From an uncultured Ruminococcus sp. (GTDB lineage Bacteria > Bacillota > Clostridia > Oscillospirales > Ruminococcaceae): a DNA stretch of 64,000 nucleotides. The position numbers and the translations under genes were made by a program. Below, piece by piece: positions 19,904 to 32,130 of the stretch. Below the pieces are notes generated by a model that was not told where the DNA came from, made no database searches, and saw only the letters and a list, made by a program, of their open reading frames with translations. The number at the start of each line of letters is the position of its first letter. Within the stretch, counting starts at the first letter, position 1. The DNA lies in the NCBI GenBank assembly GCA_902780505.1, contig CACZFN010000010.1:86823-150822 (forward strand), in the 5' to 3' direction.

Positions 19904-20995
19904 ATGACAAAAATAACCATATTTTCGGGCTTTCTCGGGGCGGGTAAGACGACACTTATAAAAAAGCTGATAGCTGACGGCTTTAATAACGAGCAGCTTG
20001 TGCTTATAGAAAATGAATTCGGCGAGATAGGTATAGACGGCGGCTTTTTGCAGGAAGCAGGCGTACAGATAACCGAAATGAACTCCGGCTGCATATGCTG
20101 CTCACTGGTGGGCGATTTCGGTAAGGCGCTTGAACAGGTACTTGAACAGTATCACCCTGACAGGATACTTATCGAGCCTTCGGGTGTCGGCAAGCTTTCA
20201 GATGTTATCAGGGCGGTGCAGAATATCGACTCAAAGGACGTTGAGCTTGACGGCTTTACTACGGTTGTAGATGCCAAGAAGTGCAAGATGTATCAGAAGA
20301 ACTTCGGCGAGTTTTTTGACAATCAGATAACCTACGCAAGCTGCCTTATACTCAGCCATACAGCGGGGCTTTCCCAGGAAAAGCTTGATGATGCTGTTGC
20401 AAGGCTCAGGGCGCTCAATGACAAGGCAACTATTGTAACGACTGACTGGGACGAACTTTCGGGCAGTGCGATAGTTGAAGCCATGACCATGAAGAACACC
20501 CTTGATGATGAGCTTGCAGAGCTTCTTGAACAGGCTAAAAAGGAAAGTGAGGAGCATGAACATCATCACCATCACCATGATCATGATGACGAACATGAGC
20601 ACCACCACCATGACCACGACGACGAGCACGAGCACCACCACCATGACCATGACGACGAACATGAGCACCACCATGACCATGACCATGAACATCATCATCA
20701 CCACCACGCTGATGATGTGTTCACAAGCTGGGGCGCAGAGAGTGCCAAGAAGTTCACTAAGGAGGAGATAACCGCCTGCCTTGAAGCGCTCGGTGACGAG
20801 GAAAAATACGGCATGATACTTCGTGCAAAGGGTATCGTTCCCGCAGCGGACGGCAGCTGGATCCACTACGACTATATCCCCGGCACACCCGACGTAAGGA
20901 CCGGTGCCGCAGGTGTTACAGGCAGACTTTGCGTGATCGGCGCGAAGATAAACGAAAAGGCTATTTCTGAGCTTTTCGGCGTAGAGGAGGCTTAA
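19904..20995 (+). CDS. CobW/COG0523 GTPase with long His-rich metal-binding loop
   Basis: A 363-residue metal chaperone GTPase of the CobW/ZNG1 family, which delivers zinc or another metal to client proteins. It has Walker A FLGAGKTTL (residues 10-18), the metal-binding CxCC motif in NSGCICCSL (about residue 65), and a Walker B/IEPSGVGK region. Between the GTPase and C-terminal domains (about residues 218-268) is a run of about 50 residues of His, Asp and Glu in tandem 11-residue units, which should bind several metal ions. The C-terminal domain (AKGIVPAADGSWIHYDYIPG) is the CobW_C type. GGAAAGGAAG precedes the start. The next gene begins three bases later. Confidence 0.92.
   Translation: MTKITIFSGFLGAGKTTLIKKLIADGFNNEQLVLIENEFGEIGIDGGFLQEAGVQITEMNSGCICCSLVGDFGKALEQVLEQYHPDRILIEPSGVGKLSDVIRAVQNIDSKDVELDGFTTVVDAKKCKMYQKNFGEFFDNQITYASCLILSHTAGLSQEKLDDAVARLRALNDKATIVTTDWDELSGSAIVEAMTMKNTLDDELAELLEQAKKESEEHEHHHHHHDHDDEHEHHHHDHDDEHEHHHHDHDDEHEHHHDHDHEHHHHHHADDVFTSWGAESAKKFTKEEITACLEALGDEEKYGMILRAKGIVPAADGSWIHYDYIPGTPDVRTGAAGVTGRLCVIGAKINEKAISELFGVEEA
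20552..20709 (+). repeat. In-frame tandem repeat encoding His/Asp/Glu tract
   Basis: A 33-base unit (roughly HHHHDHDDEHE) repeats about three times with edge variants inside the CobW gene. The nucleotide repetition makes length variation between strains likely. Confidence 0.8.
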
Positions 20996-20998
20996 TAT

Positions 20999-21958
20999 AT
21001 GCCCGAACAACCCGAGATAAGAATGCCCGTCTACCTGTTCACCGGCTTCCTTGAAGCGGGCAAGACGAGGTTTATACAGCAGACGCTTGAAGACAAGCGC
21101 TTTGATACAGGCGAAAAGACACTTGTTGTGCTTTGTGAGGAGGGCGAGGAGGAACTTGACACCTCCAAAATGGCTTCAAAGGGCGTTGAAATACGTGTCA
21201 TCGAGGATAAAGAGCAGCTTACAGAAGCGACTTTCAACCGCCTTGCTGATGAAACGGGCGCGCAGCGCATACTTATCGAATATAACGGTATGTGGCAGAT
21301 GAACGAACTTTTTGAAGCGCTTCCCGCCGATTTTGGCATATATCAGGAGATCTGCATTGCCGATTCCACGACGTTTTTAAGCTTCAATGCAAATATCAGG
21401 AGTCTTGTTGTCGATAAGCTGTCCTCTGCCGAACTGATAGTTTTCAACAGGTACGATGATGCCATTGATATGCTTGAACTGCACAAGATATGCAGGGGTG
21501 TGAGCAGGGGGATAAATATAGCATATGAATACAGCGACGGCAGGGTGAAGTATGATGATATAGAAGATCCTCTGCCTTTTGATGTGAATGCGGCTTCGAT
21601 AAAGCTTGAAGATACTGATTATGCCCTATGGTACCGTGATATTATGGAAGATCCGAAGAAATACGACGGCAAGGAGGTATGCTTTAAGGGCATTGTGGCT
21701 GTTGATCCGAGATTTCCCGATAATAATTTTGCGGTCGGCAGGCACGTTATGACCTGCTGTGTTGAGGATATACAGTATATGGGCATAGCAGCTGAATGGG
21801 GCGGCGTTAAAACGCTTAAATCGCGTGACTGGATAAAAGTTACCGGCAAAATAGCTTTTGAAAAGAGCAAGATGTACCGCGGCAAAGGACCTGTGCTGAA
21901 AGTTACAGACGTTGCAATGACAAGCCCGCCGAAACAGGAAGTTGCAACATTTTATTAA
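20999..21958 (+). CDS. CobW-like P-loop protein fused to a YcgQ/DUF1980-like domain
   Basis: A 319-residue protein. The N-terminal part (1-200) is CobW-like: Walker A FTGFLEAGKTRF, a strand ending LIEYNGMWQM in place of the IEPSG motif, and IVFNRYDD where GTPases have NKxD. The CxCC motif is absent. The C-terminal part (about 215-310) reads GKEVCFKGIVAVDP, then NFAVGRHVMTCCVEDIQYMG and WIKVTGKI, closely like the C-terminal domain of YcgQ (DUF1980/TIGR03943), a partner of the DUF318 permease YcgR. The overlap of metal-chaperone and YcgQ parts in one soluble protein is unusual. It is translated right after the His-rich CobW gene, so they probably act together in metal handling. Confidence 0.8.
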   Translation: MPEQPEIRMPVYLFTGFLEAGKTRFIQQTLEDKRFDTGEKTLVVLCEEGEEELDTSKMASKGVEIRVIEDKEQLTEATFNRLADETGAQRILIEYNGMWQMNELFEALPADFGIYQEICIADSTTFLSFNANIRSLVVDKLSSAELIVFNRYDDAIDMLELHKICRGVSRGINIAYEYSDGRVKYDDIEDPLPFDVNAASIKLEDTDYALWYRDIMEDPKKYDGKEVCFKGIVAVDPRFPDNNFAVGRHVMTCCVEDIQYMGIAAEWGGVKTLKSRDWIKVTGKIAFEKSKMYRGKGPVLKVTDVAMTSPPKQEVATFY

Positions 21959-22089: not shown

Positions 22090-22118
22090 TTGACAAAAAA
22101 CGTAAAATGATTTATAAT
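22090..22118 (+). promoter_or_regulatory. Consensus sigma-A promoter of the TasA-like gene
   Basis: TTGACA (22090-22095), 17-base spacer, TATAAT (22113-22118): a perfect match, implying high expression. Confidence 0.9.
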
Positions 22119-22144
22119 AGTAGTGTAAATAAGTGTTTGTGAAA

Positions 22145-22167
22145 GCGGCGGGTGCCGCAAAAGACCT
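22145..22167 (+). promoter_or_regulatory. Possible RNA pseudoknot in the TasA-like leader
   Basis: GCGGC (22145-22149) pairs with GCCGC (22154-22158); the loop GGGT can pair with ACCT (22164-22167), giving an H-type pseudoknot 27 bases before the start codon. It matches no riboswitch I know. Confidence 0.35.
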
Positions 22168-22194
22168 ATAGAATTAAATATAAAGGGAAAGGAA

Positions 22195-23271
22195 ATGAAT
22201 GCTATGAAAAAGACAAATGCAAAGAAAAAGCTTATACCCGCAGCCGCAATGCTTGCAATATCCGCAGCAATGCTCTCAACGGCTACTTATGCGTGGTTTA
22301 CGATGTCGAGAGAAGTTGAAGTTAAAGGCATTAATATGACTGCAACTGTTCCGGCAGGTTTGCAGATCTCACTTGGTAATAATATGGGAAGTTCGACAAC
22401 TGGTGCCAAATTGACGGCTATTAACAGCACTACAGCCGACGGTGTTGGGTTGGTTAAAGCTCCCCTTAATACCGATACATCTACAGACTGGGCTAATTCT
22501 GTACAATTTAATAGGTGGTATGTATGCAGCAAATTGAATCCTGCATCTTCTGATACAGGAAATGATATTTTTTATACGGATGATGTTACTGTTGTAGGAA
22601 AGACTCTGGAAGAGAATGCGGAAGCTTTTTCGGCTGTAACTGCAAGTAAAGCCGCTACCTTAACTCTTAGTGGAGCGCAAACTTCTGCGCCTGATGATAC
22701 ATCAGCTGCCGGCTATTATGTAGATTTTCCTGTATGGTTTAGGTCTGCTGAAAGCAGCGATGTTGATTTGGGAATTGTTGCAAGGGTTTCTAAGGGGGAT
22801 AATACTACCGGTACACCTGCAAATACCCTATATAAAGCTGCACGTGTTTCAATATTGAACTATGATAGCGCTAATTCAGAATTTGGTGTATCAGAAGGCG
22901 TTATAATTCCTTATGATGGCAACACTACAACTCAGGGTACGTACTATGTAAGATCAGATAAAGGAACAGGAGATAGCAGAGCTATCAAAACTACAGGAAC
23001 CAATGATGGTGCAGGTTCTATTTTTGGTAATGTGGATAAGGTTGTTCAGAATCACTCGACTGGTGCAGAAACAATTGTGACTGTACCTGGTAAGGACAGC
23101 GATACAGATGTTTATCAAGGATTATCAACTGATGATTCAACAAACTATGGCAAAGCAATTTGCGTTATGGTCAGAGTATGGCTTGAAGGCGAAGACGAAA
23201 GCTGCTGGAATGCAACCGCAGGTCAGGATTTCAATATTGAGCTTCATTTTGAATCTGTATCGAACACATAA
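22195..23271 (+). CDS. TasA/camelysin-like secreted filament protein candidate
   Basis: A 358-residue secreted protein. A basic N-terminus (KKTNAKKKLIP) is followed by a hydrophobic helix and the junction MLSTATYAWFTMSREVEVKG. This resembles SipW-type signal peptides of TasA/camelysin proteins, in which 'A..AyFt' is followed by a strand. The mature region is Ser/Thr/Asn/Asp-rich with few charged clusters and no cysteines apart from three scattered ones, consistent with a beta-sandwich that polymerises. It has a perfect promoter and its own terminator, so it is made in excess over the downstream peptidase operon. SD AAAGGG favours ATG 22195; ATG 22204 is possible. Confidence 0.75.
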   Translation: MNAMKKTNAKKKLIPAAAMLAISAAMLSTATYAWFTMSREVEVKGINMTATVPAGLQISLGNNMGSSTTGAKLTAINSTTADGVGLVKAPLNTDTSTDWANSVQFNRWYVCSKLNPASSDTGNDIFYTDDVTVVGKTLEENAEAFSAVTASKAATLTLSGAQTSAPDDTSAAGYYVDFPVWFRSAESSDVDLGIVARVSKGDNTTGTPANTLYKAARVSILNYDSANSEFGVSEGVIIPYDGNTTTQGTYYVRSDKGTGDSRAIKTTGTNDGAGSIFGNVDKVVQNHSTGAETIVTVPGKDSDTDVYQGLSTDDSTNYGKAICVMVRVWLEGEDESCWNATAGQDFNIELHFESVSNT

Positions 23272-23283
23272 TATGATTTTCTA

Positions 23284-23310
23284 CCCCCCTCTCCTCAGAG
23301 GGGGGATTTT
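23284..23310 (+). terminator. Rho-independent terminator
   Basis: CCCCCCTCT (23284-23292), loop CCTC, AGAGGGGGG (23297-23305), then ATTTTTAT. It separates the abundant filament gene from the operon starting at 23346. Confidence 0.9.
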
Positions 23311-23345
23311 TATGCCATTTTTTACAAACAAATAGTGATAATTAA

Positions 23346-23374
23346 TTGACATTTAGGCAAAAATGTTGTATAAT
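23346..23374 (+). promoter_or_regulatory. Consensus sigma-A promoter of the SipW/McrB-like operon
   Basis: TTGACA (23346-23351), 17-base spacer, TATAAT (23369-23374). No other promoter or terminator is evident until 31961, so ten genes appear to share this transcript. Confidence 0.9.
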
Positions 23375-23412
23375 ATAATAGAGTATCTATTTGTACAGAA
23401 AGGAGCATTGAT

Positions 23413-24180
23413 ATGGCTGGTGAACAAACGCTGGTGGGCGGTCTGCGGGCTGTTGAACTTTATTACAGAAGTGTACGCGAGATCTCAAGCGGCTCTGCGG
23501 CATTCATACAGTCACAGACAAGGCTCAATACCCCTGATATGGGCGTTCTTATGCCCGAAGCATACAGGGAGCTTTGCGATTATACTAATCAGTGCACTGC
23601 TCTTTTCGGGCTTGAACTTGTTCAGGCGCTTGATGCTATAAACAGGTTTATTGACCGTGAGGTGGCTTTCCAATGGCTTTCGGTCTATATGCCTGTCAAT
23701 TTCCTGCGGGACGAAAAGGCCGAAAAGGGCATTATGGGCTATGCAGAGCGTTATAAGATTCAGCCTAACCAGATATGCTTTGAACTGCCCGAAAAGCTGC
23801 TTGATGAAAAAAACGGCGCGGCTTCGGAAAACATTAAAAAGCTGAGAAACCGCGGCTTTCACTTTATGCTTGACAATTTCGGGGCGGCGTCAACGCCTAT
23901 GATGCGGCTGTCGGATTTCGCGGTGGACTATGTACTTATGTCGGCGGAGGTCACAAATTACCTCGGGCGTGATGAAAGGTCTGACAATGCCGTCAAGTCG
24001 ATGATACAGTTTGCAAACGATATGGGTGCTGAGCCTATCGCTGACGGTGTTGTGAATATCAAGCAGGCAGAAACGCTTTTTGAATTTGAATGTAACTACT
24101 GCACAGGAAGTCTTGCAGGAAAGTACACTCAGGAACGCTACATAAGGCGCAGGGGCGATGACGATGAACCTGATAAATAA
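23413..24180 (+). CDS. Degenerate EAL-domain protein
   Basis: A 255-residue cytoplasmic protein with the EAL fold but without its catalytic residues. PNQICFELPEKLL corresponds to the 'IEiTEs' strand, MLDNFGAASTPMMRL to 'DDFGtGySsL', VDYVLMSAEV to 'vdiiKiD' and PIADGVVNIKQAETL to 'iaEGVEt.eq...L'. The EAL motif itself, the second Asp of DDFG and the Glu of EGVET are all missing, so it should not hydrolyse c-di-GMP. It may bind c-di-GMP or act as a protein-protein adaptor. AAAGGAG precedes the ATG. It is the first gene of the peptidase/ATPase operon, which suggests signalling control of filament assembly. Confidence 0.8.
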   Translation: MAGEQTLVGGLRAVELYYRSVREISSGSAAFIQSQTRLNTPDMGVLMPEAYRELCDYTNQCTALFGLELVQALDAINRFIDREVAFQWLSVYMPVNFLRDEKAEKGIMGYAERYKIQPNQICFELPEKLLDEKNGAASENIKKLRNRGFHFMLDNFGAASTPMMRLSDFAVDYVLMSAEVTNYLGRDERSDNAVKSMIQFANDMGAEPIADGVVNIKQAETLFEFECNYCTGSLAGKYTQERYIRRRGDDDEPDK

Positions 24181-24192
24181 AGGAGAATTTCC

Positions 24193-24906
24193 ATGGACGA
24201 AAAGATCAGAGATGTCTTGGAACTGAGACGAACCGCCAAAGAGGTCAAGCGGCACGTTGTTATAATGCGTGTGCTCGGTCTTCTGGTGATAATACTGATA
24301 GCTATTGTGTCTATAGCATATGCGATATCATATTTCTATGACAAGTACGGCAGCTTTACTGTTAGGATAAACAAATACGATATGGTAAAGCAGGGGCTTA
24401 CGCTTTCGGAAAACCCCGAATGGGACAAGACCGTTTCGGTGCTGAATGCGGATATAGTTTATGATATGACGAATATTTCGGGGGAGGATCTTCCTGCGAA
24501 TATTGATATGGTAAACGGCTCACATAACGGTGACAGTTATATAGCGTATACCTTCTACCTTATCAATTCGGGTGACGACACACTTACCTATACGGGTGAG
24601 ATGACACTTGAAAATGTTACAAACCACCTTGATGAAGCTATAAGGATAGCCGTTTATATAAACGGGGAAAAGACGGTTTATGGCAAGACAAAATCAACGG
24701 GTGCGGGAATAGAGAGTGACTGTGATAAGGAGTTTGAAACATCAAATATCGTTATGACCTGCAAGACTGAGGGCTTTAAACCTAAGGCAAAGGATAAATA
24801 TACAGTTGTAGTATGGCTTGAGGGCAATGATCCTGACTGCACTGACGAGCTTATCGGTGGGACGCTGAAGCTTGGAATGGATTTCAAGATCACCGAGTCG
24901 ACCTGA
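24193..24906 (+). CDS. Membrane-anchored TasA-like protein
   Basis: A 237-residue protein with a 30-residue charged cytoplasmic tail, one membrane helix (about residues 26-50: VLGLLVIILIAIVSIAYAI) and an extracytoplasmic domain starting DKYGSFTVRINKYDM. The domain has the pattern of camelysin/TasA proteins: IAYTFYLINSGDDTLTYTGEM, AIRIAVYINGEKTVYG and TVVVWLEGNDPDCTDELIGG. That last segment is echoed in the first TasA-like protein (VWLEGEDESCWNAT), so the two are likely related partners. It could be the base or anchor of a filament, as TapA is for TasA in Bacillus. It is 12 bases after the EAL-like gene. Confidence 0.75.
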   Translation: MDEKIRDVLELRRTAKEVKRHVVIMRVLGLLVIILIAIVSIAYAISYFYDKYGSFTVRINKYDMVKQGLTLSENPEWDKTVSVLNADIVYDMTNISGEDLPANIDMVNGSHNGDSYIAYTFYLINSGDDTLTYTGEMTLENVTNHLDEAIRIAVYINGEKTVYGKTKSTGAGIESDCDKEFETSNIVMTCKTEGFKPKAKDKYTVVVWLEGNDPDCTDELIGGTLKLGMDFKITEST

Positions 24907-24933
24907 TAACACATTTAAAAGGGGAAACGAGAT

Positions 24934-25617
24934 ATGAAAAAGGCGCTTTCAATAATACTGAATATTATAGCGTGGATAATACTGCTTTTTGCACTGCTTG
25001 TGACAATAATAGTGTTTTCGACTTCAAGAAACGGTGATACGGCAAACCTGTTCGGGTACATACCGCTTTCGGTAGAGTCGGATTCAATGAAGCCGACATT
25101 TGCAACGGGGGATCTTATAATCATAAAGGAAGTTGATGACCTGTACAAGCTTGAAAAAGGCGATGTCATAACTTACTGGACGATAATTGACGGGCAGAGA
25201 GTCAAAAACACCCACCGTATCGTGGATATCAACGAATTTGAGGCCACGAGAAGCTTCGTGATGAAGGGCGACAATAACGCCGAGAACGATACAGATCCCG
25301 CACTGCCGAGCGATATCGTCGGCAAGTGGACAGAAACGAAGATAACGGGTTTTGGCAAGGTAATGGACTTTTTAAGGACTAAGAAGGGGTTCTTTATCTG
25401 CATTGTGATACCTATGATAATCTTCTTCCTGTTTGAACTTTATAAGTTTATTATAACACTTGTAGAGGTCAAGAAGCCCACACTGACCGAAGCGGACGAG
25501 GAAGAGATCAAAAAGCGCGCTATCGAGGAATACCTTGCTGAGCAGAAGAAAAATGAACAAGAGCCCGCCGGTGAAGTGCCGCCGCAGGCAGAAAATGACG
25601 ATAAAAAGGAAGAATAA
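24934..25617 (+). CDS. SipW-type signal peptidase I
   Basis: A 227-residue serine protease of the archaeal/ER branch. An N-terminal membrane helix (LNIIAWIILLFALLVTIIVF) leads to the catalytic Ser in VESDSMKPTF (about residue 51); GDLIIIKEVDD follows. The catalytic base is His in KNTHRIVDI (about residue 94), not the Lys of bacterial Sip enzymes, which defines the SipW class. FVMKGDNNAENDTDP is the usual box E region. A C-terminal membrane helix (FFICIVIPMIIFFLFELYKF) is followed by a 50-residue charged cytoplasmic tail, longer than in Bacillus SipW. It probably processes the adjacent TasA-like proteins. Confidence 0.9.
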   Translation: MKKALSIILNIIAWIILLFALLVTIIVFSTSRNGDTANLFGYIPLSVESDSMKPTFATGDLIIIKEVDDLYKLEKGDVITYWTIIDGQRVKNTHRIVDINEFEATRSFVMKGDNNAENDTDPALPSDIVGKWTETKITGFGKVMDFLRTKKGFFICIVIPMIIFFLFELYKFIITLVEVKKPTLTEADEEEIKKRAIEEYLAEQKKNEQEPAGEVPPQAENDDKKEE

Positions 25618-25636
25618 GAGAGTGTAGGGGAAAGCT

Positions 25637-27217
25637 ATGAATGCGTTTTTAAAATGGTTTTTTGTTTTCATATCCGAAATGCTCAAGGGCTTCGGCGATA
25701 TATTCGGCGGCCTGTGGCGAGGTGTGAAGCAGATATTCAACATCAAAAATTATATAGACATTTTCAAGACCTATTCAACGGAATTCGGAGCGCTCGGGTG
25801 GATACTTTCTATTTTGGCAATTGTGATAGTTGCGGCTATCTATGTGCTTATAGTTGTTATGATAGTTCTGGCAGTCAGAAAGTATGTGAGGTTTCGCCAT
25901 TCTATCGTTTCAAATGAAGATCTGCTTGAAGAAATAGCGCTTTTACAGCGCCGTGTCCTTAAAATGACTAAGGAAAAGGACGAGATCATGGCTATGAAGG
26001 TCGCGCAGATGGGGCTGCCTGTTTCCGGTGCGCTGTCGCTTGGCGACGGTCAGATGATGCTTGAAGGTGAAGCCGCCGGTGCTGAGGGTATGGCACAGGA
26101 GGGCGCTGTTACTGACGACGGCGTTGTGCAGACAACGGACAGGCGTTTCTCAAAACTTATGGAGGTCGATGCTTTCTATAAGACCTACACGCCGCCAGAG
26201 TATGATAATGAGATCACACTTGAACAGTTCTGCGACAGGTACAGAAACTTCGCCTGCTCGCGTATGCACCTGTATTATGAGCCTAAGACGATACGCCTGT
26301 TTGTAGCGGGTATGGCATCTACAAAGCTTATTATCCTACAGGGTATTTCAGGTACAGGTAAGACTTCACTGCCGTATTCATTCGGGAAGTTTTTGCAAAA
26401 TGATACGACGATAGCTTCCGTTCAGCCTTCATGGCGTGACAGAACTGAGCTTTTCGGTTACTTCAATGAATTTACCAAAAACTTCAATGAAACGGAAACG
26501 CTCAAACGAATATATTCGGCAAGCTACAATAATGATATCAACCTTATACTCCTCGATGAAATGAACATTGCACGTATTGAGTATTATTTTGCGGAAATGC
26601 TTTCAATACTTGAAATGCCTAACCCCGAGGAGTGGGAACTTGACATAGTACCCAATGCATGGAGTACGGATCCTGTCAACTTAGACCACGGCAAGATAAA
26701 GATACCGCAGAATATCTGGTATATCGGCACAGCTAACAACGACGATTCGACATATGCTATTTCGGATAAGGTTTATGACCGTGCTCAGCCGATAAACCTT
26801 GATGCAAAGGGCGTGGCGTTTGATGCGCCCGATACACCGCCTATAAATATCGGCTTCGATCACCTTGACAAGCTGTTTAAAGAGGCGTTTGAAAAGTACC
26901 CGATATCACAGGAAAACTTAAAGAAGATACAACAGCTTGACCTTTGGGTAATTGAAAAACTCAGGGTGGCATTCGGTAACCGTATTCTTAAACAGATGAA
27001 TCTCTTTGTGCCTGTTTACGTAGCCTGCGGCGGCGAGGAACTTGACGGTATCGACTATGTACTTGCAACAAAGATATTCAGAAAGTTTGAAAGCCTTAAC
27101 CTTGCAATGCTTCGTGACGAGTTAAGAGAGCTTTGTGTTTACATCAATAAATCTTTCGGTAAGAATAAGATGAATGAATCTATCGCTTACCTTGAAAGAC
27201 TACAGAAATTGTTCTGA
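25637..27217 (+). CDS. Membrane-tethered McrB-like AAA+ ATPase
   Basis: A 526-residue protein. Residues 1-50 are amphipathic, about 52-77 form a membrane helix (LSILAIVIVAAIYVLIV), and a coiled coil with Lys/Glu follows (LLEEIALLQRRVLKMTKEKDE, about 95-115). The AAA+ domain (about 205-480) resembles McrB: Walker A GISGTGKTSL at about 235, VQPSWRDRTELFGYFN (McrB-type strand), Walker B LILLDEMNIARIEYYFAEML at about 304, and sensor GTANNDDSTY followed by YDRA. No DNA-binding or nuclease domain is visible. Membrane tethering and its place between signal peptidase and coiled-coil genes argue against restriction and for a role at the cell surface machinery. Confidence 0.85.
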   Translation: MNAFLKWFFVFISEMLKGFGDIFGGLWRGVKQIFNIKNYIDIFKTYSTEFGALGWILSILAIVIVAAIYVLIVVMIVLAVRKYVRFRHSIVSNEDLLEEIALLQRRVLKMTKEKDEIMAMKVAQMGLPVSGALSLGDGQMMLEGEAAGAEGMAQEGAVTDDGVVQTTDRRFSKLMEVDAFYKTYTPPEYDNEITLEQFCDRYRNFACSRMHLYYEPKTIRLFVAGMASTKLIILQGISGTGKTSLPYSFGKFLQNDTTIASVQPSWRDRTELFGYFNEFTKNFNETETLKRIYSASYNNDINLILLDEMNIARIEYYFAEMLSILEMPNPEEWELDIVPNAWSTDPVNLDHGKIKIPQNIWYIGTANNDDSTYAISDKVYDRAQPINLDAKGVAFDAPDTPPINIGFDHLDKLFKEAFEKYPISQENLKKIQQLDLWVIEKLRVAFGNRILKQMNLFVPVYVACGGEELDGIDYVLATKIFRKFESLNLAMLRDELRELCVYINKSFGKNKMNESIAYLERLQKLF

Positions 27218-27256
27218 TAAACCGGTATATCAATAAAGGGGAGGTGAGTCGGCACT

Positions 27257-29509
27257 TTGGCAGGTTCAAATCAGGAATGGTTGAAGGAATTCAAAAGCTT
27301 TGTAAAGGAATTCAATGATGATGAGCTTTTTGCTTCGCTCGATTCACTTCTTCGTTCAAGCAGGAATAATTTTGCCTTTAACAAAAAGATAATGGAAAAG
27401 GCAATAGATATATCGTGGGTAGAGGCTATTGAAAACGGGCTTTACCACGTTGATAATGTTATAAGAAACCCGAGGCGTACCATCGAGGACGTCGAGGAGG
27501 TAGTGCCGATAGCGCTTTCACGCAAGATAACGGTTGAAAGCGTAAAGCACCTTGCCCAGCATACAGACCTTATACAGAGCATTGACAAGAAAACCGGAAA
27601 GATAACACCTTCAAAGATACTTAATGTCCACAAGGAAGAAAGCTTGCAGACGTATGAAAACAAGTTTGTGAACACACTTGTTGACAGGCTGTATATATTT
27701 ATAAACCGCAGATATGAAAAACTTGCTCAGGTAGCAAAGGATGAGGAAGTTCTCACTTTAGGCTACGATACCGACATTGATGACGGTATGGGCGGGAAGA
27801 TGAAGATAAACATAAATATCGAAACTATCGACAGCCTTGACACTGTCAACGAAAGCGGACTTACGATATGGCAGAGGGTGGAAAAGCTCAAAAAAGTAAT
27901 AGAGGGCTATAAAGGCTCTGAACTTTGCATGACGCTTGGAAACACATTTATCAGGCCGCCTGTTATGCGTACAAACGCTATAATGAAAAACGTTGACCTC
28001 AAAGCCTGCCTGACGTTATGGCAGTATATAGAAAGCTATGATAAAGTCGGGTACGAGATAAACGTCGAAAACACAGCGGTAAAGCCTGACATCAGGTATG
28101 TTGATGATTTCTATAAGCTTGTTGTGCTGAGCCTTCTGCTTTTCCGTTCTTATAATTCGGACGGCGGCAATAAGAAGCTTGAAGAAATGAAGACCGTCAA
28201 GCAGAGATCGCTCATGCCGAGGTTCTTAAAGCACTTTGACAAAGAGCTTGCAAGCTCATATGATGTGCAGACTGATGCGGCGGCAGGGTATTTAGCGGCT
28301 GACAGCGACTTAAAGCTTATAAAGAAAATGCCGGAGGATGTCAGCGGCGTTATTGATCAGGTAGCGAAAGTAATAAATATAGAGCGCAATTATATGCGTG
28401 AACAGGAAAGGATAAGGCTTGAACAGCTGAAGGCCGAGGAGGAAGCAGAGCGCAGACGGCAGGAAGAAATTGCAAGGCAGGAAGAACTGCGCAGGATAGA
28501 GGAAGCAAAGGAAGCCGAGCGAGAGCGTATCAGGCAGCAGCAGCAGGAAGAAGAAAGACAGCTGCGTGAAATGCTTGAGCAGAAGCGGCGTGAGCAGGAA
28601 GCCGAAGAACGGGAGCGCGAACGGCTTGAACAGGTACGCCTTGCGAAACTTGAAGAAGAAAGAAAGCGCAGGGAAGAAGAACGCATAAAGCGCGAAAAGG
28701 AAGAAGCCGAAGCTGCCGAACGCGAGAGGATAAAACAGGAGAAGCTTCAGGTAATGACCGAACTCGGCGAAGCGGAAGGCATAGATGCCGAGGATATAGA
28801 GGATTCTGCACAGGCGGCGGAGGAGGCCGAGGAACAGAAGGCATACGAGGAAGTGACCGAGGCCGAGATAGAAGAAGTAAAGAACGAAATAGAGGAAGCT
28901 GTCGAGGAGGGCGAAGCGCCGCCTGAGGAGGAAGAAGATCCGAGGGCGATCGTTGCGAGAATGAAGCTCGAACAGCAGAAAAAGGAGAAAGAGCGTGCCG
29001 AACGAGAGCGCGCCGAGCGCCTTAAAGCTGACAGGCAGCGCTTTGAAAGCAAGCCTTTCAGGGAGATATACAAGGAGTATTCAAAGAACCCGATCTACGC
29101 GATACCGAGGTTTATCCGGTTTATACTCGCGTTTGTATTCGGGCTTATACCCGAAGATACTGACAACCCCGATCTGAAAGCCAGGCTTGCCAAGAGAAAG
29201 GCAGATGCCGAGGCAAAAGAGATCGCCGAGCAGAAGCGTATCGAAATGGAAGGCTACTACAAAAAGTATGCACAGACTTTCAAATACCGCTTTATGCGTA
29301 AGATAGGCGATATCAAGTTCAAGCGTAAGAAGCGCAAGGAACTTAAAAACAAGCCGAGGCCGCCGTATACCCCGCCTGTACGCACACCTGAGCAGCAGCG
29401 TGAGATAGATCAGATGATGAAGAAGCTTTATAAGCAGTATCACGTAACGGTCTTTGAGAAATTCAGGCGTTGGCTTGAGGATTTCAGGTTCAGGCACCGG
29501 AGGAAATAG
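27257..29509 (+). CDS. Large coiled-coil protein with DUF2357/McrC-like N-terminal region
   Basis: A 750-residue cytoplasmic protein starting at TTG 27257 behind GGGGAGGTGA; an in-frame TGA at 27245 rules out an earlier start. Residues 1-340 are globular, with LQTYENKFVNTLVDRLYIF resembling the 'tpENrfvk' segment of DUF2357 proteins that pair with McrB ATPases (from memory, tentative). Residues about 375-500 and 560-600 are an almost pure Glu/Arg/Lys/Gln coiled coil. About 600-750 is very basic, with one moderately hydrophobic stretch (IPRFIRFILAFVFGLIP). It follows the AAA+ gene by 39 bases and is probably its partner. Confidence 0.75.
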   Translation: MAGSNQEWLKEFKSFVKEFNDDELFASLDSLLRSSRNNFAFNKKIMEKAIDISWVEAIENGLYHVDNVIRNPRRTIEDVEEVVPIALSRKITVESVKHLAQHTDLIQSIDKKTGKITPSKILNVHKEESLQTYENKFVNTLVDRLYIFINRRYEKLAQVAKDEEVLTLGYDTDIDDGMGGKMKININIETIDSLDTVNESGLTIWQRVEKLKKVIEGYKGSELCMTLGNTFIRPPVMRTNAIMKNVDLKACLTLWQYIESYDKVGYEINVENTAVKPDIRYVDDFYKLVVLSLLLFRSYNSDGGNKKLEEMKTVKQRSLMPRFLKHFDKELASSYDVQTDAAAGYLAADSDLKLIKKMPEDVSGVIDQVAKVINIERNYMREQERIRLEQLKAEEEAERRRQEEIARQEELRRIEEAKEAERERIRQQQQEEERQLREMLEQKRREQEAEERERERLEQVRLAKLEEERKRREEERIKREKEEAEAAERERIKQEKLQVMTELGEAEGIDAEDIEDSAQAAEEAEEQKAYEEVTEAEIEEVKNEIEEAVEEGEAPPEEEEDPRAIVARMKLEQQKKEKERAERERAERLKADRQRFESKPFREIYKEYSKNPIYAIPRFIRFILAFVFGLIPEDTDNPDLKARLAKRKADAEAKEIAEQKRIEMEGYYKKYAQTFKYRFMRKIGDIKFKRKKRKELKNKPRPPYTPPVRTPEQQREIDQMMKKLYKQYHVTVFEKFRRWLEDFRFRHRRK

Positions 29510-29511
29510 CT

Positions 29512-30228
29512 TTGGCAGAGCAGAAAACATCACAGCCCGAAAGCAAAAAGGGCAGGTTAATAAGGATAACTGATATAGCACTTACTGTCCTTATTTTGGT
29601 ACTCGTGGTACTTGTGGCATATATTATGATAAATGCTTCAAGGGGCAGGGCAGTAAGTGTTTTCGGCAAAAGTATACTGAGTGTGGTCACGGGGAGTATG
29701 GAACCGTCTATCCACGAGGGAGATTATATAATCGTTGAAAAGGCTGATGCCGATGACCTTAAAAAAAATGATATCATATCATTTTATTCAAGAGATGAAG
29801 ATATCAGGGGCAGGCTTGTAACACACAGGATAATCGAGCGATACGGCGACGGCACATTCCTGACGAAGGGTGATGCCAATGAAACAGCCGATACAGAGCG
29901 TGTCAGGCCTGAGGATATTGTAGGAAAATACACGGGCAGGGCAAGGCTTTTTGAACTGATAGGTTCGTTTGCAGACTTTAAGAAGCTTATAATGATATTT
30001 GTTATCATTCCGATGGCACTGGTAAGTTTGTATGAAGTAAAAACGCTTGCAAAGCTGTTTGTGCAGAGCAGGCAGGATGATAAGCTTTCACAGCAGGAAA
30101 TGCGTGAACAGCTTATCAGGAAAGAAATAGAAAAGCACAAGGAGCTTCTTCGCCGTGAAGAAGAAAGCTCACAGAAAACTGACAAAGAGGTGAAGGACTG
30201 TGAACCAGGAAGGGATAATGAAACGTAG
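29512..30228 (+). CDS. Second SipW-type signal peptidase I
   Basis: A 238-residue enzyme beginning at TTG 29512, two bases after the coiled-coil gene, with GGAGGA inside the end of that gene. One membrane helix (IALTVLILVLVVLVAYIM) precedes the catalytic Ser in VVTGSMEPSIHEGDYI (about residue 62). The base is His in LVTHRIIERYG (about 105), again SipW class. GTFLTKGDANETADTERV is box E. A second membrane helix (LIMIFVIIPMALVSLYEV) leads to a 55-residue charged tail predicted to be coiled coil. Two different SipW enzymes in one operon imply different substrates or steps. Confidence 0.9.
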   Translation: MAEQKTSQPESKKGRLIRITDIALTVLILVLVVLVAYIMINASRGRAVSVFGKSILSVVTGSMEPSIHEGDYIIVEKADADDLKKNDIISFYSRDEDIRGRLVTHRIIERYGDGTFLTKGDANETADTERVRPEDIVGKYTGRARLFELIGSFADFKKLIMIFVIIPMALVSLYEVKTLAKLFVQSRQDDKLSQQEMREQLIRKEIEKHKELLRREEESSQKTDKEVKDCEPGRDNET

Positions 30229-30652
30229 AATGGTGACAGCCATTGTACTTTGTATCATAGCAATGATAGCCTGCCTTGTATTCATAGGGCTTTATATCGA
30301 TGAGTCAAACCGCGTGCAGGAAACGTTTCGTTCGCAGTATTACACAAGTTTGCAGCACGTATCTGATGATGTTACCTCCTACCTTGAAAGTGAGGGCGAC
30401 AGGGATATGCGATATACAAGGCTTGTGAGCGATATGAACACAGCAAGTTCTTACGCATTCCTGATAGACAATTTTACGGATAAGCAGATAATAGTAAACG
30501 AGCTTGCCACCTGTCTTCTAAAATACCCCGAGCAGATGACGGGAAAGCTTGAAGATGTAAAAAAAGCCGCCGACGATATGGCAGCAGGGCTTGACAAGGG
30601 GTATGATGAAGCCAGGGAAATAGTTGAGTCTATAAACAAAAAGGGTAATTAA
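30218..30652 (+). CDS. Small single-pass membrane protein
   Basis: A 144-residue protein: short basic start (MKRRM), a membrane helix (VTAIVLCIIAMIACLVFIGLY) and a helical extracytoplasmic domain (about 30-144) rich in Asp, Ser and Lys, ending with a likely amphipathic helix (KKAADDMAAGLDKGYDEARE). The ATG at 30218 has AGGAAGGG upstream; a GTG at 30200 with GAGGTGAAG is a fair alternative. It overlaps the preceding peptidase by 11 bases, so translation is coupled. The hydrophobic segment is followed by 'DESN', not a SipW cleavage motif, so it probably stays anchored. Function unknown. Confidence 0.75.
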   Translation: MKRRMVTAIVLCIIAMIACLVFIGLYIDESNRVQETFRSQYYTSLQHVSDDVTSYLESEGDRDMRYTRLVSDMNTASSYAFLIDNFTDKQIIVNELATCLLKYPEQMTGKLEDVKKAADDMAAGLDKGYDEAREIVESINKKGN

Positions 30653-30675
30653 TTAAGCAAGGGTGATGATAGATT

Positions 30676-30903
30676 ATGAGTGAAAAAAGCAAGCTTAAAA
30701 AGGAAATCAAGATATGCCAGCAGACTATAGAAGAAATAGAGCGCAAGCGTTCAAGGTCACAGTCGGCACTTGTTCAGGCGGTGCTTTTGCAGGAAACGCC
30801 TAACGAAAACGACGTTGAGTGGTTCAACAAGTATACAGGCGAGATAACCGCCTGCCGTAACCATATGATAGAGCTGCAAAAGAAGCTCAACTCCCTCAAA
30901 TAA
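30676..30903 (+). CDS. Small cytoplasmic coiled-coil protein
   Basis: A 75-residue protein, Lys/Glu-rich, with two helical stretches (KKEIKICQQTIEEIERKRSR and an equally charged one at the end) around VEWFNKYTGE. No membrane segment or known domain. It is embedded in the operon 23 bases after the previous gene, and its TAA overlaps the next ATG (TAATG). It could be an adaptor for one of the larger coiled-coil proteins. Function unknown. Confidence 0.7.
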   Translation: MSEKSKLKKEIKICQQTIEEIERKRSRSQSALVQAVLLQETPNENDVEWFNKYTGEITACRNHMIELQKKLNSLK

Positions 30904-31283
30904 TGGACAGGGCACAGACAGCAGTAGCTTTGAAGCATGGCGGCTGCAACTGCGCGCAGGCAGTGCTTTTAAGCTTTAAGGACAAAACAGACCTTGACGA
31001 AATGACTCTAAAGAAGCTTGGCGCGGGTTTTGGCGTTGGCATGGGCTGCCTGAACTCGACCTGCGGGGCTTTATGTGCGGCACAGATGCTTCAGGGGCTT
31101 ATGAAATATAAAGGCACACCGATCATGGCGGATGCAAAAATGCTGAACAAAAGCTTTTCAGAGCTTTGCGGCGCTGTAGAATGTGCAGACCTTAAAGGTG
31201 TAAAAACGGGCAGGGTACTGTGCGAATGTGATGACTGTGTTGCAAACGCAGTAAGACTTCTTGAAAGCATGACAGGTGGTTGA
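30903..31283 (+). CDS. C_GCAxxG_C_C family redox/metal protein
   Basis: A 126-residue protein of the C_GCAxxG_C_C family, small Cys-rich proteins thought to bind metal or take part in redox reactions. Visible motifs are GGCNCAQAVLLSF, GVGMGCLNSTCGALCAAQM and the C-terminal CECDDCVANAV, in the family order. It overlaps the previous stop by one base. Its role in this operon is not obvious, and it may simply be co-transcribed. Confidence 0.85.
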   Translation: MDRAQTAVALKHGGCNCAQAVLLSFKDKTDLDEMTLKKLGAGFGVGMGCLNSTCGALCAAQMLQGLMKYKGTPIMADAKMLNKSFSELCGAVECADLKGVKTGRVLCECDDCVANAVRLLESMTGG

Positions 31284-31284
31284 T

Positions 31285-31962
31285 ATGGCAGGAATACTTG
31301 ATTATCTTGGATTTGAATACAAAATGATACCCGACGATACTGATGCAAACGGGCTTATGGAGTTGTTTGCAGGTGAGTGTGAGCGCGGCAGGAAAGAAGG
31401 CTTTACGCCCGTTATAATACCGCTTGAAGACAATTTAGACGAGTATTTAGAGGATATGGACGATGATGTGTCAGGGCACTTTGAACAACGCGGTGCCGCA
31501 GGATTTTTTTCTCAGAGAGAGCATGAATACGAAGACGACATTGACGAACTTATGTCAGATGTTACAACAGGTGATGCAAGCAACACGCTTGTTTCTGTAT
31601 TTGACTATGAAAGCGGAGAGATAGGGGAAAGTGCGATAGTGTATCTGCCGACAGACAAGCCGTGGGAGGCTGCCGTTTTAGTGCCGTTCGGCGGCTGGAA
31701 CGAATGCCCCGAACCCGAGGACATGGCGGCGGTTTTAAAACACTGGTTTGAAATATACGGCGCTGTACCCGCTGCGATAACACATGACACTTTAGAGATG
31801 GTCGTACCGGATGCCATTGAGAGGAAAAAGGCGCTTGCGCTTGCGCGGGAACACTATCTGTTCTGTCCTGACAGGGTGACACAGTGCACACGTACAGGAA
31901 AACTCGGCGAGCTTGCGGGAGATCTTAGCGTGTCGAAAGTGTGGTATTTCTGGTGGGATTAG
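31285..31962 (+). CDS. DUF4253 domain protein
   Basis: A 225-residue soluble acidic protein. The C-terminal half matches DUF4253: VLVPFGGWNECPEPEDMAAV, then HWFEIYGAVPAAITHDTLEM, and a tail ending SKVWYFWWD. The ATG at 31285 is one base after the stop of the preceding gene with AGGTGG upstream; the GTG at 31276 is less likely. DUF4253 proteins have no established function, and some sit in toxin-immunity settings, which is not suggested here. It is the last gene of the long operon. Confidence 0.85.
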   Translation: MAGILDYLGFEYKMIPDDTDANGLMELFAGECERGRKEGFTPVIIPLEDNLDEYLEDMDDDVSGHFEQRGAAGFFSQREHEYEDDIDELMSDVTTGDASNTLVSVFDYESGEIGESAIVYLPTDKPWEAAVLVPFGGWNECPEPEDMAAVLKHWFEIYGAVPAAITHDTLEMVVPDAIERKKALALAREHYLFCPDRVTQCTRTGKLGELAGDLSVSKVWYFWWD

Positions 31963-31993: not shown

Positions 31994-32130
31994 CGAGTTT
32001 ATCTTCGACGACAATGTCGTCGATTTTGCTGCGCAAAACCGATAAACTCGGGGGACTCTTACGGAATTGCTGTCGATTTTGCCGTGAAAAACCGGTAAAC
32101 TTGGGGAGGCTGCTCTTGCGGCAATGCCGT
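31994..32130. repeat. Structured region with imperfect tandem repeat upstream of metY
   Basis: CGAGTTTATC (31994-32003) pairs with GATAAACTCG (32041-32050) and encloses CGACGAC/GTCGTCG. Two related units of about 60 bases follow each other, each containing TCGATTTTG, an AAAACCG-TAAACT core and a G-rich stretch. No open frame. It could be a decayed repeat element or a structured RNA leader; it does not match the S-box or T-box. Confidence 0.45.

Follow-up and report, generated by a model that had tools for sequence, protein, structure and literature searches.

We analysed a 64,000-nucleotide stretch of DNA from an uncultured Ruminococcus sp. (GenBank assembly GCA_902780505.1, contig CACZFN010000010.1, positions 86,823 to 150,822 of the forward strand), referred to here as the window, and we present evidence on a cluster of eleven genes within it. 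The cluster combines a membrane-anchored nucleoside triphosphatase (NTPase) resembling McrB, a partner protein with the N-terminal domain of McrC, two signal peptidases of the SipW type and two proteins resembling the fibre protein TasA, and it probably serves to build or control surface filaments rather than to fight viruses. A first-pass annotation, made by a model from the sequence, had described the eleven genes and two perfect promoters, and all were found again at the same coordinates, every gene on the + strand: gene 1 stands separately and is followed by a tight run of ten genes (23413-31962) with intergenic gaps of 2-39 bases or overlaps. The features, in window coordinates, are as follows.

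22090..22118, + strand: sigma-70 promoter-like site for tasA1, a 12/12 match to the consensus
22195..23271, + strand: tasA1 (gene 1), exported TasA-like protein of 358 residues, signal ending TYAWFT
23284..23305, + strand: strong intrinsic-terminator-like hairpin of 9 pairs after tasA1, separating gene 1 from the run
23346..23374, + strand: sigma-70 promoter-like site for the main operon, a 12/12 match
23413..24180, + strand: degenerate EAL-domain protein with no membrane helix (PF00563, 5.2e-32)
24193..24906, + strand: tasA2 (gene 3), membrane-anchored protein of predicted TasA/pilin fold (transmembrane helix 27-45; predicted model and Foldseek)
24934..25617, + strand: SipW1, SipW/ER-type signal peptidase with a conserved tail (NF046067, 9.5e-34; TIGR02228, 2e-27)
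25637..27217, + strand: membrane-anchored McrB-like AAA+ NTPase (gene 5) with a GTANNDDST (NxD) motif
27257..29509, + strand: DUF2357 (McrC N-domain) and long charged, coiled-coil-like protein with a TTG start (PF09823, 1.8e-8)
29512..30228, + strand: SipW2, second SipW-type peptidase (SipW-model match; S62/H105/D127)
30200..30652, + strand: TM150, single-pass protein with a putative outside domain (hydropathy)
30676..30903, + strand: CC75, small, strongly conserved, coiled-coil-like protein
30903..31283, + strand: C_GCAxxG_C_C protein (PF09719, 2.2e-20)
31276..31962, + strand: DUF4253 protein (PF14062, 9.4e-32)

The main-operon promoter is conserved, with a 12/12 site no more than 300 bases upstream of the EAL gene in 38 of 58 relatives; such a site also precedes 7 of 31 tasA1-type genes of relatives. 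When the EAL and tasA1 upstream stretches were base-shuffled together as controls, none of 89 reached 12/12 and the top control score was 10. A second terminator-like hairpin lies beyond the run at 32005-32023, and the + strand terminator-like sites within it are all weak (e.g. 30273-30290, with 3 G-C pairs), in keeping with the earlier statement that no internal terminator is visible. Scans of the 64-kb window for tRNA genes and Rfam families found nothing.

The ATPase had been described as McrB-like and membrane-bound, and both parts of that description hold. A profile of gene 5 matches three distinct McrB sequences in the PDB at E ~1e-5, and the Walker B motif (LDEMN) and the GTANNDDST motif do not vary among the 80 named relatives. 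Placed ungapped on a solved McrB, GTANNDDST could also be read as NxxD; we prefer the NxD reading because distant cousins have GTVNMDET. By hydropathy the window protein has one membrane helix (59-77), ahead of the AAA+ core, and a helix before Walker A is present in all 80 named relatives, in 13 of 13 further SipW-linked loci and in none of the 13 distant cousins for which this region was measured (in two of them it is shorter than 55 residues). The next gene had been called a 750-residue coiled-coil partner. Its coiled-coil-like stretch, rich in E/K/R/Q/A at ~400-600 and judged from composition, is indeed present, and its identity is now that of a DUF2357 protein, DUF2357 being the N-domain of McrC. 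The alignment of this family gave only weak matches to PDB sequences, in the charged stretch and to unrelated proteins. No nuclease was detected: PDDEXK_7 was found in none of 24 DUF2357 proteins of the family (9 + 15 scanned) at E up to 1, and in a Pfam scan of the window cluster proteins no nuclease family scored above its cut-off. Among the partners of the distant cousins, PDDEXK_7 is present in 5 of 8 scanned, 4 of them above the curated cut-off.

Both signal peptidases resemble SipW, as had been proposed; they score above the TIGR02228 cut-off and have the Ser, His and Asp residues intact. Both also fall below the 190-bit cut-off of the Bacillus SipW equivalog, and they are therefore SipW-type peptidases rather than B. 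subtilis SipW itself. In the whole genome they are the only two SipW-type peptidases above the TIGR02228 cut-off. After a score filter the alignments held 75 SipW1 and 68 SipW2 sequences, the window included; S51, H94, D113 and D119 of SipW1, together with positions of its tail, are kept in at least 70 of the 75, and S62, H105 and D127 of SipW2 in all 68. Both proteins continue where the Bacillus SipW model (189 residues) stops, and SipW1 has a conserved tail (E189-L201). SipW2 and the DUF2357 protein form a single fused protein in 23 loci of the named relatives. One example is the single protein of Ruminococcus albus 8 in which Pfam recognises DUF2357 (68-168) and Peptidase_S26 (795-857); S26 was seen by Pfam in 6 of 15 DUF2357 proteins scanned, and the fused proteins among those 15 number six. 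Signal peptidases of the SipW type have their active site outside and their N-terminus inside, and because of this orientation the order of the fusion, DUF2357 then coiled coil then SipW2, fits.

The earlier description of genes 1 and 3 as TasA-like stands in part. Pfam and NCBIfam lend it no support, since none of their TasA/camelysin models match gene 1, gene 3 or the 31 gene-1-type proteins scanned; it is borne out by a fold match for gene 3 and by profile homology between the two genes. An AlphaFold model of TasA2, the gene 3 product, from a 54-row alignment (predicted local distance difference test score, pLDDT, 85) was compared with the PDB by Foldseek. The TasA fibre 8aur ranks first (E 1.1e-4, prob 1.00) and the Pyrobaculum archaeal bundling pilin 7ueg second (E 6.9e-4), these two alone passing E 0.001; a chaperone-usher pilin domain ranks third and the Sulfolobus 0406 filament 7pnb twentieth (E 0.024), with TM-scores about 0.3. 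Cleavage of its anchor left aside, the predicted model supports a TasA/donor-strand pilin fold for gene 3. When the two family profiles, of gene 1 and of gene 3, were compared by hhalign, they aligned at 96.7% (E 3.9e-10, valid for a single comparison), and relatives of gene 1 share the signal end TYAWFTM and the strand VRVWLEGED..C; the TYAWFT end is presumably a SipW-type motif. Judged from these alignments, gene 1 is a homologue of gene 3 with a SipW-type signal.

The first-pass annotation had suggested a search for the same gene order in other Clostridia, and there the ATPase, DUF2357 and SipW genes do stay together. At least 495 relatives turned up when named genomes were scanned; the 80 whose ATPase is closest to that of the window were retained, and each linkage count takes in only loci with enough contig to show the gene. 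SipW1 lies upstream within 400 bases of the ATPase at 72 of 72 loci, the DUF2357 gene downstream at 71 of 71, and SipW2 is adjacent or fused at 66 of 66. TasA2 is present within 8.5 kb upstream at 57 of 61, the EAL gene somewhere in the stretch at 59 of 61 (upstream at 57), CC75 in 50 of 53 relatives and TM150 in 45 of 53. The order is conserved down to 54% ATPase identity, and named isolates among the relatives include R. albus 8, R. flavefaciens, Eubacterium ruminantium, E. uniforme and E. xylanophilum. The four loci without TasA2 (L096, L098, L103 and L108) have upstream proteins of 1280-2884 residues instead; the giant of L108 has a TYAWL signal. We also note large proteins with signal ends YGWF/YAWL/FAWL near the system in L097, L108, L025 and L075 (at least 1317 residues; that of L075 is cut by the end of the stretch).

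Beyond this set, 35 of 391 Clostridia genomes match the ATPase at 1e-10 (the window's own included); of 47 places, 40 were read, within 34 regions. They fall into three tiers. The first (13 loci, L144-L156) has a SipW gene within 6.5 kb in 13 of 13; some of its members are close kin of the named set, and the ATPase core of L146 is identical to that of L107. Three of its loci, distant ones (L149, L150 and L151), have at least three SipW-type peptidase matches each around the ATPase. The second is a related membrane-helix branch of seven loci, five with the order ATPase-DUF2357-ATPase and two with one ATPase seen, a membrane helix being present in all 12 ATPases. In its tandem loci (L157-L161) two ATPases flank one DUF2357 gene, with Transglut_core-type neighbours in 3 of 4 scanned; such loci may encode another machine for surface proteins, with an origin shared with the first. 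The third comprises the distant cousins, 14 loci with low scores and no SipW match in any of the 14. An ATPase apart from SipW and TasA genes, the arrangement that the first-pass annotation had said would speak against its proposal, was thus found, but only in these distant cousins and in the seven loci of the sister branch. On an ATPase tree of 57 rows (the window, 18 loci from the named set of 80, and those fetched regions in which an ATPase match was seen), SipW linkage is explained by one change, with support 76/92 and in 78% of bootstrap trees, and none of 500 shuffles of SipW linkage on the tree was as low as one change. As the C_GCAxxG and DUF4253 genes illustrate, the operon does pick up passengers, and one could suppose on that ground that SipW/TasA genes and a McrBC-like pair are merely neighbours; a chance neighbourhood is contradicted by the conserved order, by the 23 fusions and by the single change on the tree, and we give it almost no weight.

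We consider it likely that a nuclease-free membrane McrBC-type NTPase machine, together with two dedicated SipW peptidases, controls the processing and assembly of TasA-type donor-strand filaments and of other surface proteins. Several observations weigh against this reading or limit the evidence for it. The linkage counts come from loci chosen for similarity to the window ATPase, and the partner profiles were built from matches in those same 80 loci. The Foldseek match of TasA2 to TasA has a TM-score of 0.32, a global root-mean-square deviation of 19.9 Å and 11% identity; the AlphaFold model of TasA1 (pLDDT 72) has no PDB match under E 0.001, and TasA comes only at rank 47 (E 0.41). TasA1 is in the stretch at 29 of 42 loci and missing from it at the other 13; a strong match elsewhere (E below 1e-10) was found in 11 of these 13 genomes, and only weak matches in two. 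The Pfam DUF2357 model, which matches 7 of 9 and 11 of 15 family proteins, misses 6 of 24, and its silence on a nuclease is therefore no proof. The second-tier loci have no SipW match. Recombinant BsaA polymerises alone, and known fibres of its class assemble without an AAA+ NTPase (PMC7395162). Finally, the NTPase core matches the PADLOC candidate-defence model PDC-M26A (1.6e-38), and spread in the family is patchy, with 8 of 148 genomes matching at 1e-60.

The last two observations, and kinship with McrBC and CoCoNuT systems, would also suit an anti-phage role, in which a CoCoNuT-like membrane NTPase with SipW-dependent exported or membrane effectors causes abortive infection or a surface change on phage entry. 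Relatives of this machine normally cut foreign DNA or RNA. We set restriction or defence aside as first choice because no nuclease was detected and because the partners resemble surface proteins. The DUF2357 protein matched no PADLOC model, the promoter is strong and conserved, and the ATPase is present in 7 of 7 searched genomes of the genus (the window's own included; 13 of 61 genomes overall). An anti-phage function thus appears improbable. In a phylum sample of 398 genomes the window's own was the sole match at 1e-60.

How might such a machine act on filaments? The DUF2357 stalk of McrC interacts with and activates McrB GTPases in hexamers, as described in the CoCoNuTs paper (PMC11090510). 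This activity, together with a peptidase topology that fits the fusion, leads us to propose that SipW action, and the passing of subunits to TasA2, are driven or gated by a membrane-tethered ring together with its DUF2357 arm. Expression of TasA1 would come from a strong promoter of its own, and its export would use its SipW-type signal. The McrB-like protein, held by its single membrane helix with the AAA+ domain inside the cell, would form a ring, on which the DUF2357 protein would dock to activate hydrolysis, as McrC does on McrB. The long coiled coil may then relay this activity to SipW2 and to the conserved SipW1 tail, so that nucleoside triphosphate (NTP) hydrolysis gates or paces subunit cleavage and release. 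Membrane-anchored TasA2 could act as base or initiator, taking on TasA1 through strand exchange. The degenerate EAL protein would be a regulatory or scaffold part. More tentatively, a nucleic-acid restriction machine of the McrBC class may have been converted to assemble donor-strand filaments of the TasA class from the membrane, at the expense of NTP, its working end now being a signal peptidase; we hold this to be less likely than not.

A different use of the same parts can be envisaged in which the NTPase and the DUF2357 protein act not as a filament motor but as a chaperone at the membrane; SipW precursors, giants included, would be extracted, held or delivered by it for regulated proteolysis or quality control, filaments being one cargo of several. 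The candidate cargo beside the system does vary by locus, from TasA-like proteins to giants of 1.2-2.9 thousand residues; SipW-like signal ends occur elsewhere in the window's genome without a peptidase of their own, at the locus described below; and the sister branch of paired ATPases lies beside transglutaminase-type proteins with no SipW match. TasA2 is a nearly constant partner, and because of its presence at 57 of 61 loci we favour a filament base over the chaperone reading, which we regard as unlikely, though well above an anti-phage role. The locus in question, L181 (G000:C24:24000-38000, on contig 24), encodes three proteins with the SipW-like signal ends SWFTM, FAWFS and YAIYT and a giant protein of at least 1853 residues, homologous to large proteins beside the system in L021, L041, L043, L082 and others. 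No peptidase was found in the 14 kb read. The one TIGR04088 match in the genome, below the cut-off, is also at L181.

Whether the filament machine is under the control of a signal is less clear. The first-pass annotation had called it signal-controlled, and this part of its proposal is weak because the small EAL protein has lost its catalytic residues: the EAL motif and most other catalytic positions are replaced in the window protein, and likewise in 10 other small EAL proteins displayed, of 59 aligned. On these losses (EAL, DD, K, E and Q were tested) we reject an active phosphodiesterase for cyclic di-GMP (c-di-GMP). Compared with PDB sequences at E 1e-10, the protein had no match. More distant loci have an extra GGDEF-EAL protein after the operon, both domains being recognised in the 2 scanned, and EAL motifs are intact in 6 of these proteins displayed, of 12 aligned. 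The presence of these proteins makes a c-di-GMP link plausible at those loci; for the window locus the case is weaker.

The first-pass annotation had also counted all ten genes of the run as one machine, and the last two do not belong to its core. CC75 is 96-97% identical in four same-genus loci. The C_GCAxxG_C_C protein has no match in the four same-genus loci long enough to show it (L017, L018, L021 and L022), and DUF4253 is present in 4 of 4 same-genus loci; among the 80 wider loci it was found in two, both of them records from the same genus. Such sparse occurrence in relatives rules out both as core parts; going by this distribution, the C_GCAxxG_C_C gene is an operon passenger and DUF4253 a genus-level addition. 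Upstream of the cluster, at 19904-21958 of the window, lie two adjacent GTPase genes, which we take to be G3E/CobW-like; the first has a His/Asp-rich repeat stretch, which suggests a metal chaperone. Overall the biology seen by the earlier reader was largely right and its interpretation is partly supported.

One part of that interpretation does not stand, namely that the system is undescribed. The 2024 CoCoNuTs paper already names a kind of system, CoCoPALM, in which, as far as its main text goes, an NxD McrB-like GTPase is fused to an FtsB-like transmembrane/coiled coil and accompanied by a coiled-coil McrC and by signal peptidases likely acting in pilus assembly, fuller treatment being deferred (PMC11090510). 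According to the same text, the nuclease is often absent or inactivated in McrC homologues whose partner is a coiled-coil McrB fusion. We found no functional follow-up of CoCoPALM in a literature search with little subscription coverage, the name occurring in the eLife paper and its preprint. If an NTP-driven assembler is indeed at work here, it would be, to our knowledge, the first platform in Gram-positives that uses energy to assemble TasA-type fibres. The cluster also provides candidates for surface filaments that gut bacteria might use in attachment and in biofilms, and the role of a nuclease-free McrBC machine at the membrane becomes directly testable.

The archaeal bundling pili (7ueg) and the Sulfolobus 0406 filament (7pnb) resemble this cluster in that they are among the Foldseek matches of TasA2, at ranks 2 and 20, and we know of no link between them and a McrBC-like NTPase. 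McrBC and CoCoNuT type IV restriction systems share the AAA+ core, DUF2357 and the NxD motif, but the cluster differs from them in its membrane helix, its surface-protein-like neighbours and the absence of a detected PD-(D/E)xK domain. With tapA-sipW-tasA of Bacillus and sipW-bsaABCRSD of C. perfringens it shares a SipW peptidase encoded with TasA-type subunits; unlike it, the former is not known to have an AAA+ NTPase, DUF2357 or EAL gene (PMC13082335), and the gene list of the latter has none (PMC7395162). The cluster has two SipW genes. The closest likeness is to CoCoPALM, as the main text presents it: an NxD McrB-like NTPase, a transmembrane segment before the GTPase domain, DUF2357 with a coiled coil, and linked signal peptidases. 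Pfam matches of the N-domain in 9 members of the NTPase family included no FtsB/DivIC family up to E 10, the CoCoPALM paper's own basis for FtsB homology not having been compared. Judged by shared features rather than by the published clade, the cluster matches the kind of system named CoCoPALM. The main text of the CoCoPALM paper does not use the words SipW or TasA, and its supplements may hold part of what we report; as far as that text goes, the TasA-fold partner, the SipW identity of the peptidases and the SipW2-DUF2357 fusion, found 23 times, are additions. For a large branch within Clostridia, our results link CoCoPALM, there a name without an assigned cargo, to named isolates, to a pair of SipW peptidases and to a partner of TasA fold.

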